A DNA stretch of 64,000 nucleotides. It comes from Lentilactobacillus senioris (GTDB lineage: Bacteria > Bacillota > Bacilli > Lactobacillales > Lactobacillaceae). The notes under the pieces were generated by a model that searched no databases, was not told the origin of the DNA, and worked only from the letters and a program-made list of their open reading frames with translations. Below are positions 8,239-62,812 of this stretch, in pieces. Each line of letters opens with the position of its first letter. The stretch's first letter is position 1. The DNA is taken from contig NZ_JAPQEZ010000004.1 in assembly GCF_026798195.1 (NCBI RefSeq), positions 124,283 to 188,282 of the forward strand, given 5' to 3'. Made by a program: the position numbers and the translations under genes.

Positions 8239-8571
8239 TTAAGGCTTGATGTATGCGTAACCTTCACTTTGTTTGCAGGCTAATTCTACTACTCCGACGG
8301 GGACCACTTGGAGATTAGCTTGTAATGAATCGGTTTTAATATCTCGTTGAACTAGGGAATTATTACATACTGCTACCATAATTCCCATGTTAGTTAACTG
8401 GCTTAAATTAATGTCGCTGTTTTTAACAACAGCGCTAACCGCGGAACCGTTAACTAAAACTTCTATCGTTCCAGCAGTTTTAGTCGATTGCATCCATTCA
8501 TGCATATGATTTACATTACTAAGTAATGTCGGCCATTTGTTGATTTCATCAATGTGAAAAATAGTATTCAT
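8239..8571 (-). CDS. DsrE/DsrF-like family protein, 110 aa
   Basis: Small cytoplasmic protein with the DsrE-like layout: NTIFHIDEINKW at the N-terminus, a middle GTIEVLVNGSAVSAVVK strand-loop-strand, MGIMVAVCNNSLVQR with one conserved-looking Cys, then VVPVGVVELACKQSEGYAYIKP ending in a second Cys. DsrE-fold proteins bind or transfer sulfur or act as small binding proteins; the role of this short form is unknown. I start it at 8571, where GGAGGA sits 5 nt upstream, rather than at 8595. It is divergent from the isochorismatase-like gene and shares its upstream region. Confidence 0.72.
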   Translation of the reverse strand: MNTIFHIDEINKWPTLLSNVNHMHEWMQSTKTAGTIEVLVNGSAVSAVVKNSDINLSQLTNMGIMVAVCNNSLVQRDIKTDSLQANLQVVPVGVVELACKQSEGYAYIKP

Positions 8572-8588
8572 AGGATTCCTCCATGTAT

Positions 8589-8618
8589 TTGACAAAGCGT
8601 CTTATCAATAATCATAAT
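8589..8618 (+). promoter_or_regulatory. Predicted promoter of the isochorismatase-like gene
   Basis: -35 TTGACA (8589-8594), 18-bp spacer and CATAAT (8613-8618). It overlaps the ribosome site of the divergent DsrE-like gene. Confidence 0.6.
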
Positions 8619-10610: not shown

Positions 10611-10686
10611 TAGTGAACTTTGCTTAAATTATTAAATCATCCTAGTTTATGCCATAATAAGATTAGCTAGATTAGGAGGTGGAATG

Positions 10687-11577
10687 ATGAAATATACTGT
10701 CCTTTATAATCAATCTGCGGGTAAGGCTGACAGTGAAAAACGAGCTCAGCAATTTAAAGTTTTGGCCCAAGCTACACAACATAAAGTGGTATTAGTGGGG
10801 ACCACTAGTAGAGAACAAGCAATAAAATATATTCAGGAAAATATAGATAATATAAAAACGTTGGTGGTGGTCGGCGGAGATGGCTCAATTAATACAGTAT
10901 TCTCCGCTTTGATTTCAATGAAAGCTAGTCCAGTAATTGGAATTTTGCCAGGTGGAACGGTCAATAATTTCGCTAGAGCCATGAATATTCCATTAGACAA
11001 TGAAAAGGCTACGAAGGTAATTTTGAACGGAAAGGGGATTACTACCGATTTACTTCATAGTGATCAACGGGCTATTGCTAGCAGTTTAACTTTAGGAACT
11101 GTTGCAGAAATGGCAAAAGGAGTGCGACAAGAAGAAAAACAACGCTGGGGATCATTAACCTATCTGGTTAATGGGATTAAAAAGCTAGTAACTACTAAGC
11201 CGGCGTCCATCCAGATTAAGGCAGGTGAACAAATCCACCAATTTAATACTAGGTTTTTACTGATTACCACTACTAGTTCGATAGGTGGTTTTACTAAGTT
11301 TAACCCAGAAGTTGGTGTTGACGATCATCAAATTCATATTACTATTTTAAAACGCTTTTCTCCGTGGCGAATAATGGGATACTTTAGTTATTTTATTACT
11401 GGCCAAATTCGGAAACTTAATGATGCTAGTTATTTAAAATTAGAACAGGCTAACATTAGTAGCTTGGATGATAAGAAGGTGGCGGTGCGAATTGATGGGG
11501 ATGAAGCGGGGGAACTGCCGGTCAATTTATACGTAAAGAAGCAATTTATTAAAATTATTGTGCCTGAATCAGATTAA
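10687..11577 (+). CDS. Diacylglycerol/lipid kinase family protein (YegS/DgkB-like)
   Basis: 296 residues. Phosphorylates a lipid alcohol such as diacylglycerol with ATP at the membrane face. Seen: the nucleotide-binding VVVGGDGSINTVFSAL motif, followed by GILPGGTVNNFARAM, both hallmarks of the DAGK catalytic domain. The C-terminal beta domain carries DDHQIHITILKR and RIDGDEAGELPV. There are two adjacent ATGs; the second (10687) is 7 nt from AGGAGG and the first only 4, so I take the second. Monocistronic. Its promoter is not obvious. B. subtilis DgkB recycles diacylglycerol from lipoteichoic acid synthesis, a plausible role here (inference). Confidence 0.87.
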   Translation: MKYTVLYNQSAGKADSEKRAQQFKVLAQATQHKVVLVGTTSREQAIKYIQENIDNIKTLVVVGGDGSINTVFSALISMKASPVIGILPGGTVNNFARAMNIPLDNEKATKVILNGKGITTDLLHSDQRAIASSLTLGTVAEMAKGVRQEEKQRWGSLTYLVNGIKKLVTTKPASIQIKAGEQIHQFNTRFLLITTTSSIGGFTKFNPEVGVDDHQIHITILKRFSPWRIMGYFSYFITGQIRKLNDASYLKLEQANISSLDDKKVAVRIDGDEAGELPVNLYVKKQFIKIIVPESD

Positions 11578-11591
11578 AGTACCATAAAATT

Positions 11592-11616
11592 AAAAACACT
11601 TGATGAAGTGCTTTTA
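11592..11616 (+). terminator. Weak terminator-like hairpin
   Basis: AAACACTT / AAGTGCTTT with one mismatch and a 4-nt loop, then TTTT. Confidence 0.5.
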
Positions 11617-11737
11617 ATACTACATAGAATGGCGAGTTAGTGATAGATTTAATTATAATGTTATAGTTTGAACTCAAGGAACTGTCATCTGATTGGTTCC
11701 AAATATTTTAAGTAACAATTTAAAAGGGGACCTAGCA

Positions 11738-11863
11738 ATGAAGCTATTAGAAACTAAACACGTTACTGTTGAAGCACGAAAGACCACAATTAAAGAAAAA
11801 ATAGAAGCTACTATTGTTATTCTAATTTTAGCCGCCTTTATAACTTGGAAGGTGATGCAATAA
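11738..11863 (+). CDS. Small single-span membrane protein, 41 aa
   Basis: Too short for most gene callers. The peptide has a basic, charged first half (MKLLETKHVTVEARKTTIKE) and one hydrophobic helix, ATIVILILAAFITWKV. A good site, AAGGGGA, lies 8 nt before the ATG. Its stop overlaps the start of the next frame (TAATG), so the two were translationally coupled. The next frame is broken by a TGA. Pairs of this kind occur in small mobile-element cargo, and the position next to the 3' end of ssrA fits that. I do not recognise its function. Confidence 0.6.
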   Translation: MKLLETKHVTVEARKTTIKEKIEATIVILILAAFITWKVMQ

Positions 11864-12054
11864 TGTCAACTAAACAAACACTTGCTAATAGTAAATGAAT
11901 TTCTAAAAATAAAGAACACGCAAAATATTTAAGCGATCGTTCTAGGTCGCGCAGTTTTATTAAAAAGCAAGCAATACTTGAAGATATTAAAGAATTTGAA
12001 CAGTTACTAAGCGATCGTAAGGTACTGCTTGAAAATCAAAATAAAGACGCCTAA
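11863..12054 (+). pseudogene. Small basic/charged protein gene interrupted by in-frame TGA
   Basis: The frame begins at the ATG overlapping the previous stop and reads MSTKQTLANSK, then TGA (11896-11898), then 51 more sense codons: ISKNKEHAKYLSDRSRSRS and onward, ending NQNKDA and TAA at 12052. The second part has good coding texture and no start codon of its own, so the two pieces were one 63-codon gene. TGA probably replaced TGG (Trp), one base away. The product would be highly charged and perhaps helical. A real terminator follows. Whether it is still expressed by read-through cannot be told. Confidence 0.65.
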
Positions 12055-12067
12055 ACAGCGTCTTTTT
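12043..12067 (+). terminator. Rho-independent terminator after the broken small gene
   Basis: Stem AAAGACGC / GCGTCTTT with a 7-nt loop and a T run. It overlaps the stop codon region. Confidence 0.85.
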
Positions 12068-12083
12068 AAATTTTGCGCACAAA

Positions 12084-12139
12084 TTTTTGCACGTGCAAAA
12101 AACGTGCATGATCCATCAGCGTTCTTATGGCTTCTTATG
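12084..12139. repeat. Palindrome and tandem repeat beside ssrA
   Basis: An 18-bp perfect palindrome TTTTTGCACGTGCAAAAA (12084-12101) is followed by ACGTGCAT, a partial copy of its centre. Then comes a direct repeat TTCTTATG at 12122-12129 and 12132-12139. No coding sequence covers it. Such clustered repeats next to a tmRNA 3' end resemble recombinase arm sites (inference). Confidence 0.4.
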
Positions 12140-12149
12140 TTTTCTAAAA

Positions 12150-12197
12150 ATAAAAAAATAGCCTAAACCCTTGATATAAAAGGATTTAGGTTTTTTT
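12150..12197. terminator. Bidirectional terminator at the ssrA 3' side
   Basis: CCTAAACCC (12162-12170) and GGATTTAGG (12182-12190) form 8 of 9 pairs. T runs lie on both outer sides. On the minus strand it ends the tmRNA transcript. Confidence 0.8.
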
Positions 12198-12222
12198 AAA
12201 ATGTTTCTTATTGTTACTAAAA

Positions 12223-12590
12223 TGGAGTCGGCGGGAGTTGAACCCGCGTCCGAGCATATCGCCACCTGAACGTCTACGTTCATAGATTTACTATTTAAAT
12301 TTCACTAATAAAAACGCCATAAATCAAGGCTCTCGTTATTAGCTAATCTGATTAGTCTCTTCAATTGACTTCAGATGGGAGCCAATTGCGTAAGCCCACT
12401 TATTTATAGGACCCAGATCTATCTCATGGGCGAAGATAGGAGGATCTACGTTAAGCGCTTATTAGGCAGCTAAAGCGTAAGAGTTTGAATTATTTTTTGC
12501 AGTTATAATTTTAAACTGGGTGGTTTAACGTGGCACCGCACGAAACGCAGTCCAGGCTCGACCTATACCCGTCGAATCCATAACGACCCC
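12223..12590 (-). ncRNA. ssrA: Transfer-messenger RNA (tmRNA)
   Basis: About 368 nt. The ends pair as a tRNA acceptor (GGGGTCG / CGACTCC plus discriminator A), with a T arm GGCGGGAGTTGAACCCGCGTCC on the plus strand. The conserved 5' block TTATGGATTCGACGGG is present. The tag reading frame starts at GCA and encodes AKNNSNSYALAA before TAA TAA, a lactobacillus-type degradation tag. CCA is not encoded. tmRNA with SmpB frees ribosomes stalled on broken mRNAs. The predicted promoter lies at 12607-12634. Its 3' end is a classic integration site, and the adjacent region looks like a scar. Confidence 0.96.
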
Positions 12591-12606
12591 AAAATGTATC
12601 TATGTA

Positions 12607-12634
12607 ATTGTAGCACATTTTGGAGAAATAGCAA
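12607..12634 (-). promoter_or_regulatory. Predicted ssrA promoter
   Basis: On the minus strand: -35 TTGCTA (12634-12629), 16-bp spacer, TACAAT (12612-12607), 17 nt before the RNA 5' end. Confidence 0.6.
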
Positions 12635-12638
12635 AAAA

Positions 12639-13412
12639 TTAGATTAAATCAAAGTGTTTGAGACCATTAACGATGCCGTGATCTGTATTAGCTGTGGTTA
12701 CAAATTCGGCGTATGGCTTAACATGGTCTAAGGCGTTCCCCATTGCTACGGCATGATCTACGAAGTCAAGCATTGGGATATCATTGTTACCATCACCGAA
12801 TGCATAAGTAGGAATGCCTTCTAAACCAGCATTTTTAATTAATTCTTGGATTCCGTTACTCTTAGAATTGCCCTTAATAACAATGTCCATGCTAGAGGGG
12901 GTATTACGATAAAAAGTAAATTGATCGCCAAATTTATTGCGATAATCTTCATCGTGTCCCTTAGTCATTACCAACATCATGTAAACGGGATTAGTTTGCC
13001 AGAATTCTTCTGCTCCAACTGGAGGGACCGTGCTATTAACAGAATCATAAGCTCTTTGAGCAAAGTCCGTGTTAAAGTTAATACGAGCTCCCTTGTTATT
13101 TAAGACAACAATGGATTCGTCAAAGGTTTTAGCATATTCAGCTAACTCACTGGCTTGTTGATTTGAGAAGGTTGCTTCATATACTGGTTTACCTTCATGA
13201 ACCACAAAATCGCCATTAGCAGAAACTACCGTAGAAATTCCAGTAATTGCCATAACATTGGGAATTTCGAATAGATTGCGTCCAGTTGAAATCACCGGTA
13301 AAATGTTATTAGATGCTAGTTGATGCATTGCATCTGACACTTCAGGATCAACTTTAGTTTGAGCGTTCAGCAGTGTATTATCCAGGTCAAAAAAGGTGAG
13401 TGCTTTGTACAT
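12639..13412 (-). CDS. HAD superfamily hydrolase, Cof-type phosphatase
   Basis: 257 residues, cytoplasmic. The HAD nucleophile and acid/base Asps stand in FFDLDNTLLN (Asp9, Asp11), motif II is ISTGRN, and motif IV is FGDGNNDIPML near the C-terminus. The inserted cap (about 85-190) is the Cof/type IIB kind, so the substrate is probably a sugar phosphate, FMN or a similar metabolite; it cannot be named. A site AAGGAAGG precedes the ATG. It is transcribed toward ssrA with no terminator between, so some read-through into ssrA is possible. Confidence 0.85.
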   Translation of the reverse strand: MYKALTFFDLDNTLLNAQTKVDPEVSDAMHQLASNNILPVISTGRNLFEIPNVMAITGISTVVSANGDFVVHEGKPVYEATFSNQQASELAEYAKTFDESIVVLNNKGARINFNTDFAQRAYDSVNSTVPPVGAEEFWQTNPVYMMLVMTKGHDEDYRNKFGDQFTFYRNTPSSMDIVIKGNSKSNGIQELIKNAGLEGIPTYAFGDGNNDIPMLDFVDHAVAMGNALDHVKPYAEFVTTANTDHGIVNGLKHFDLI

Positions 13413-43903: not shown

Positions 43904-44187
43904 CAATAATTATTAAGAGCAAATGAAAAGATGAGTAGAAAATGAAAAGTCGTTTAGAGAGCTTGGTCAGGTGAAAGCAAGCCGATGGAAATTTTCGAAT
44001 ATGGTCTTTGATATTGCGTTTATTGATGAACTTGCGCAAGTAAATTAATAATGGTTGACGTTCATTACTACGTTATTAAAGAACTTTTTAAGGCTGAATT
44101 TAAAAATTCAGTAAACAAAGGTGGTACCGCGAGGTCTTTCGCCCTTTGATTGCAGTTAGCAATCTGGGTGAAAGGCCTTTTTTTATT
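43904..44187 (+). ncRNA. T-box riboswitch, methionine (specifier ATG)
   Basis: The T-box core AAAGGTGGTACCGCG is at 44117-44131. The terminator stem AGGTCTTTCGCCC...GGGTGAAAGGCC with seven Ts follows (about 44132-44187). The antiterminator would use the T-box core. Stem I shows the AG-rich apex (GAGAGCTTGGTCAGGTGAAAGCAAGCC) and a specifier loop TCGAATATGG with ATG at 44001-44003. Uncharged tRNA-Met should open the switch. The genes it controls, metNPQ, import methionine, which agrees. Confidence 0.92.
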
Positions 44188-62589: not shown

Positions 62590-62812
62590 TGTCTTGAAGC
62601 GTTGAACAAGAGGAGTAAACCAGGTCTCTGCCCAGAAAGAAAATGGCTGCTGTGAATTTTCCGAAGAACTGGTTGAAGGTAGCTTGTGAGCTTTTGCAAT
62701 TTAGCACGGTTTAATCGGCCGTTAACAATGATTAATTAAGTGGAGTTTTTTAACTCAATTTAGGTGGTACCGCGAGCACTTCGTCCTATATGTTTGGACG
62801 GAGTGTTTTTAT
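62590..62812 (+). ncRNA. T-box riboswitch, valine (specifier GTA)
   Basis: T-box core AGGTGGTACCGCG at 62762-62774, then the terminator GAGCACTTCGTCC...GGACGGAGTGTTTTT (about 62775-62812). The 5' part shows GAGGAGTAAACCAGG with the matching CCGAAGAACTGGTTGAAGGTAGC, placing GTA (62679-62681) in the specifier loop. The valS start follows at 62834. Uncharged tRNA-Val should allow read-through. Confidence 0.92.

Follow-up and report, generated by a model that had tools for sequence, protein, structure and literature searches.

A probable prophage scar at the 3′ end of ssrA in Lentilactobacillus senioris

Comparison of the sequence immediately downstream of the tmRNA gene ssrA in Lentilactobacillus senioris with the corresponding regions of related genomes indicates that positions 11738–12235 of the window (the whole stretch of 64,000 nucleotides analyzed here, from assembly GCF_026798195.1, contig NZ_JAPQEZ010000004.1, positions 124,283 to 188,282) are very probably the remnant of a tyrosine-integrase prophage that had inserted into the 3′ end of this gene. 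The initial annotation of this stretch, made from the letters alone, had proposed the scar of an integrated element at this place on circumstantial grounds, and the elements that we find at ssrA in relatives lend this proposal support. Our comparison shows that elements do insert at ssrA in this genus, and also that an attachment arm can distinguish a scar from native flank after the integrase and the second core have gone. The remnant adds a case to a familiar class of scars, and the part of our analysis that is worth testing is the exchange of the ssrA terminator, as discussed below.

As ssrA is encoded on the minus strand, its downstream side faces lower coordinates, and the features relevant to our argument are arranged as follows:

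10684–11577, plus strand: intact left neighbor, which we take from its sequence to be a diacylglycerol-kinase-like gene
11738–11863, plus strand: small peptide of 41 aa with one membrane span
11863–12054, plus strand: broken gene of the phage family PHROG 2277, whose function is unknown, interrupted by an in-frame TGA at 11896–11898
12043–12065, plus strand: intrinsic terminator closing the broken gene
12063–12222: putative prophage attachment arm, now directly abutting ssrA, assigned by its similarity to an end of prophage B (see below)
12084–12101: 18-bp palindrome TTTTTGCACGTGCAAAAA inside the arm
12095–12111, plus strand: 17-mer GCAAAAAACGTGCATGA, shared with both arms of prophage B
12122–12139, plus strand: tandem TTCTTATG repeats of the arm (copies at 12122–12129 and 12132–12139)
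12162–12190, minus strand: arm-borne predicted intrinsic terminator following ssrA
12219–12235, plus strand: attachment core of 17 bp, formed by the 3′-terminal 13 nt of ssrA plus 4 nt of flanking sequence
12223–12590, minus strand: ssrA (tmRNA), tag AKNNSNSYALAA

Elsewhere in the window, we observe two T-box leaders on the plus strand, at 43914–44149 and 62593–62791.

The features on which the proposal of a scar had been built are all present. The pair of TTCTTATG repeats is found a single time in the window and in none of 100 shuffles; a third TTCTTAT lies at 12205–12211, and by itself this heptamer is not more frequent in the window than expected by chance (16 seen vs 21.6 expected). The palindrome is the sole match to its own pattern in the window at up to two mismatches, with 0.01 matches expected, and it is followed by the reported partial copy, ACGTGCA. 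In the related strain L. senioris DSM 24302, the palindrome is imperfect (GCGCGTGC), and what is conserved is thus a motif rather than a perfect palindrome. The small membrane peptide and the broken charged-protein gene were likewise correctly recognized, the start of the latter overlapping the stop of the former. That no integrase remains, and that there is no second copy of the ssrA end, also holds at the level of the whole genome, in which all nine integrase-family matches lie on contigs other than that of the window (C34), and the core occurs once. The window therefore carries neither the integrase nor the second core of an intact prophage or satellite; both have been lost here.

In a search of 41 genomes with positions 11578–12640, ssrA itself was matched in all 41, and beyond ssrA, long pieces (11578–11823 and 12063–12235) are common only to L. 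senioris DSM 24302 (G007; contig NZ_AYZR01000008.1, here C3), the nearest relative among the genomes compared. In two further genomes, the match extends past ssrA and takes in the terminator part of the flank, to about 12148 for G002 and about 12142 for G017. In DSM 24302, the pieces are split, with 11578–11823 found at C3:138473, 12063–12235 at C3:195835, and ssrA at C3:209163, such that the two shared pieces lie about 57 kb apart, together with second core copies of a prophage and of a satellite. The core sequence, AAAATGGAGTCGGCGGG, is identical to the 3′ end of ssrA and has three exact copies in C3, at 146562, 195991, and 209164, the last being ssrA itself. Between the first two lies an element of 49.4 kb (prophage B), with a 380-aa tyrosine integrase adjoining the first core, and with genes that we take from their sequences to be terminase, portal, tail, and lysin genes. 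Between the last two lies an element of 13.2 kb (satellite C, C3:195991–209164; L024, 990–14180), which carries a 393-aa integrase, a primase, and portal and head proteins, including a protein that matches head protease and major head families; it resembles the capsid-forming phage-inducible islands. An incomplete copy of the satellite (copy A) lies to the left of the first core; it shares 91% identity with satellite C over 3957 columns and 98% over its last 431 bases, and probing it with three integrases gave no match. The left neighbor of this array is the same kinase-like gene as in the window, and the left junction is common to both genomes. Among viral contigs, the core was matched three times in the DSM 24302 contig and once more inside a gene, with no tmRNA there, and the integrase of prophage B was matched by itself and by one distant relative.

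Our assignment of the sequence adjoining ssrA to a phage comes from the second shared piece. Positions 12063–12235 are 93% identical over 173 nt to C3:195835–196007 of DSM 24302. This stretch of DSM 24302 is the middle-core end of prophage B, and the match includes the palindrome region and the TTCTTATG repeats. As insertion at a core leaves the old host flank to the left of everything inserted, and as this match lies to the right of prophage B, against the middle core, we take it to be prophage B's own end, integrated at the same site. Furthermore, GCAAAAAACGTGCATGA, with at most one mismatch, is found at three places in the 24 genus genomes, namely both ends of prophage B and the window, while its reversed control pattern is found at zero places in the same 24 genomes. 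These observations support the view that the repeats and the palindrome belong to a prophage attachment arm, in which the palindrome at 12084–12101 is probably a recombinase-binding region. A similar architecture is seen in G017, where a prophage with an integrase 63% identical to that of prophage B sits at ssrA, and where the ssrA-facing arm has the same order as the window, that is, repeats, TTCTTAT, hairpin, TTCTTATTG, and core. The flank of the window taken alone gave no blastn match to G017, and the remaining likeness is therefore one of layout in a four-way alignment. We note that the integrase of prophage B lies on the opposite side of the core compared to G017 and to the phages EV3 and JNU_P5, which requires that the attachment cassette be turned relative to the integrase.

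The terminator alone was also considered as a mark of phage origin, and was dropped because G002 has it with no element found. There, a stretch of 75 nt adjoining ssrA shows 76% similarity to the arm's terminator part; the core was found once, and 12.8 kb of flank gave no integrase match. The 75-nt stretch may be either an older scar or native. A further hairpin stretch in G002 (L030, about 1308–1400), 86% similar over 79 nt to the ssrA terminator of the window, adjoins a tRNA-Ser gene, and phage JNU_P5 appears to use the 3′ end of tRNA-Ser as its core. When the 221 bases on the ssrA side were compared with a phage collection, 76 records were matched, none covering 80% of the query; the best 20 of these 76 match the terminator part, or the terminator together with the ssrA end, and the palindrome is matched by none of these best 20.

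Within the genus, the flank of ssrA could be read in 23 of the 24 genomes (three of these flanks being shorter than 500 bases, and G013 having none). Four of the 23 flanks have an integrase match, in each case with a second core: G003, G007, G014, and G017. The elements at ssrA measure 8.6 kb in G003, 11.5 kb in G014, and 53.5 kb in G017, and the integrases of the first two are 55–57% identical to that of satellite C. The comparison across strains that the initial annotation had called for thus reveals integrase-bearing elements at this locus, and not the same 600 bp conserved throughout the genus with no element ever inserted. The broader supposition that most ssrA flanks carry an integrase is not borne out, as 19 of the 23 are without a match to the three integrases used as probes, a set that may miss other integrase kinds; three of these 19 flanks are shorter than 500 bases, and the others span 12–20 kb. 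Two of the genomes with a single core nevertheless show similarity to arms found elsewhere. G016 has 179 bp that are 87% like the ssrA-side arm of the G014 element, followed from 2.5 kb onward by host sequence whose G014 counterpart is found past the element, and G019 has approximately 190 bp that are 78% like the G003 arm; we read both as further arm-only scars. In G012, a second core is located on another contig. In G017, we observe a short extra ssrA 3′ end (L033, about 8520–8600) beside a HAD-type gene that elsewhere adjoins ssrA, with the full ssrA (L032, 14092–14457) about 56 kb away, on the other strand, and next to other genes, such that either ssrA seems to have moved or the region seems to have been inverted.

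The two genes to the left of the arm differ in how readily they can be assigned to a phage. The broken ORF, translated across its stop codon, matches PHROG 2277 at an E-value of 1.4e-20, and intact relatives of it exist, whereas the 41-aa peptide has no Pfam or PHROG match; a residual phage gene beside the arm is thus recognized in one of the two ORFs. We read the peptide as a left-behind phage gene as well, and have chosen it as the left limit of the scar. A homologue of the peptide lies beside the same gene in DSM 24302 (83%), and a weak one (49%, E-value 3e-4) lies in G005, upstream of a PHROG 2277 relative and among apparently chromosomal genes. Relatives of the PHROG 2277 protein are found in 12 of the 23 other genus genomes at an E-value of at most 1, and in 10 at 1e-3 or better. 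With the G014 relative as query, tblastn against phages returned 22 records, 15 from Listeria phages and 7 from Streptococcus phages, all covering less than 80% of the query, and a plasmid search with a PHROG 2277 relative returned 6 records. The arrangement as a pair recurs, in that a small membrane ORF stands directly upstream of the relative at 11 of 20 viral-contig loci (several of which are near copies) vs 39 of 259 control ORFs (Fisher p 1e-4). Among the 11 genus loci, such an ORF was found at three, clearly in G021 and more weakly, 100-odd bases off, at two others, under a rule that missed the G005 peptide that is 49% identical to that of the window.

The surroundings of these relatives vary. 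In G021, the pair follows an endolysin-like gene on the same strand. Of the 22 phage records, three were inspected: Listeria phage B025, described below; LP-030-2, where the annotated relative is flanked by the integrase and lysin genes and has the same orientation; and the streptococcal phage smHBZ8, where it lies among replication genes. The pair of the window reads toward the core, and its direction differs from that in the Listeria phages. At 18 of the 20 viral-contig loci, a contig end is no more than 6 kb from the relative, and at 5 of the 20 an integrase match is within reach; as several of the contigs are short, and as so few loci have an integrase, we give little weight to the position of the relatives. 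Prophage B has no gene pair next to its arm. The terminator that closes the broken gene (12043–12065) is 89% identical over 36 nt to one on contig C36 of the same genome, which stands at the end of a prophage-like region, next to late-phage-like ORFs, and the stretch beside the C36 terminator is 86% identical over 218 columns to an end of prophage B. We also observe an apparent prophage on this contig (L035, 2475–9500), with an integrase at C36:40712–41872.

These data have to be weighed against other accounts of the same sequence. If 12063–12222 were native to this clade as the 3′ flank of ssrA, terminator included, with prophage B adjoining it by chance in DSM 24302, the similarity of the terminator part at ssrA of G002, where no element was found, would be readily explained, and this similarity, together with the hairpin adjoining tRNA-Ser, means that the terminator part alone could be host sequence. 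A native flank should, however, lie to the left of the inserts, whereas the arm in DSM 24302 lies to the right of prophage B, against the core; in addition, the 17-mer recurs at the other end of prophage B and otherwise, in 24 genomes, only in the window, and the hairpin beyond the far core in G003, G014, and G017 differs from that adjacent to ssrA. We thus consider a native origin of the whole arm to be highly improbable. We also think it unlikely that only the arm and core derive from a phage, the peptide and the PHROG 2277 gene being an unrelated host or cargo pair. Such an origin would fit the similar pair among apparently chromosomal genes in G005, the different direction in Listeria phage B025, the lack of a pair next to the arm of prophage B, and the lack of a family match for the peptide, but it sits poorly with the membership of the broken gene in PHROG 2277, with the similar pairs located after the endolysin-like gene in G021 and some 0.8–1.1 kb from attP of B025 (on the side away from the integrase), and with a terminator that is common to a prophage-like end in the same genome.

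The last of these accounts concerns the history of the remnant rather than its nature, which it would leave unaltered: the scar would have been made elsewhere, and would have arrived by recombination with a chromosome like that of L. senioris DSM 24302. Identity to this strain, calculated per 100 nt, is 64–81% over most of the kinase gene, and then rises to 91–98% at about 11384–11783, with 88–98% in the arm. The jump near the end of the kinase gene may reflect recent exchange of the left part between lineages, but the high identity is limited to two short tracts, and such sequence may be constrained; arrival by recombination therefore seems to us rather unlikely, if conceivable. The order of events is accordingly uncertain, and the nature of the remnant much less so.

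In the reading that we prefer, that of a prophage remnant, integration would have taken place across the 17-bp core, leaving ssrA intact and placing a phage arm, with recombinase-binding repeats and a terminator of its own, directly downstream of the gene. A later deletion would then have removed the integrase, the body of the phage, and the far core, leaving behind the gene pair (the PHROG 2277 member of which is now broken), its terminator, the arm, and the core. The hairpin of the arm would now end the ssrA transcript, and the hairpin at 12162–12190 is presumably used as a terminator in the cell.

This raises the question of what happened to the previous terminator. In G004, in which no element was found, the hairpin after ssrA closely resembles a hairpin that in G014 lies beyond the far core; this native-looking hairpin is 11.5 kb from ssrA, the sequence further on corresponds to G004, and a different hairpin, belonging to the G014 element, adjoins ssrA. 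In G003 and G017, too, two hairpins are seen, one adjoining ssrA and the other past the far core, though without an empty-site partner for comparison. In the phages EV3 and JNU_P5, a hairpin lies between the integrase and the core (the JNU_P5 core being our own reading), and no clear core was seen in phage Sha1. Under a simple rule, which missed the G004 hairpin that folding shows, a terminator-like hairpin is found within 260 nt in 17 of the 23 flanks vs 16 of 440 shuffles. Elements at ssrA thus seem to bring their own terminator. It is conceivable, though on balance we would sooner doubt than assert it, that the ssrA terminator is replaced by the arm-borne one, and that the arm of a decaying element thereby becomes indispensable for ssrA termination; a limited search of the literature turned up nothing on such an exchange. 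If true, a housekeeping RNA gene would here be served by a domesticated terminator of viral origin, the scar in the window, and the divergence of ssrA terminators among related species would be explained by repeated insertions. A swap of this kind could also explain why small arm scars persist.

Integration in tRNA and tmRNA genes is reportedly treated in a 2002 review, and our search for literature on prophages of L. senioris found no paper. The closest counterparts of the remnant are prophage B and satellite C of DSM 24302, which have the same core, a 93% identical arm, and the same gene as the window. These elements possess integrases and stand in tandem, whereas the window has one end only, and the genes to the left of its arm differ from those of prophage B. 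In Latilactobacillus sakei, two predicted intact prophages in the tmRNA gene are described (PMC9641780), and are mentioned again in an L. curvatus paper (PMC10688831). They represent lactobacillus tmRNA insertions like that of the window, but are predicted to be intact and belong to another genus; the word “terminator” is absent from the main text of PMC9641780. Lactobacillus phage EV3, which integrates at the 3′ end of tRNA-Leu (PMC4234937), has an integrase 51.6% identical to that of prophage B, with attP between lysin and integrase and a hairpin in the arm between integrase and core. It differs from prophage B in using tRNA-Leu rather than ssrA, and in having its integrase on the hairpin side of the core. 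With respect to the gene pair, the nearest parallel is Listeria phage B025, in which, as in the window, a small membrane ORF is followed by a charged-protein relative and by a hairpin resembling a terminator, close to the annotated attP. The B025 pair, which is unannotated, consists of a 45-aa membrane ORF followed by a 69-aa relative, opposite gp29 and gp30 (L079, 2819–3171), two annotations that may be mis-called. It stands on the side of attP away from the integrase, separated from attP by three annotated genes and approximately 0.8–1.1 kb, and its reading direction is away from that site, whereas the pair in the window reads toward its core.
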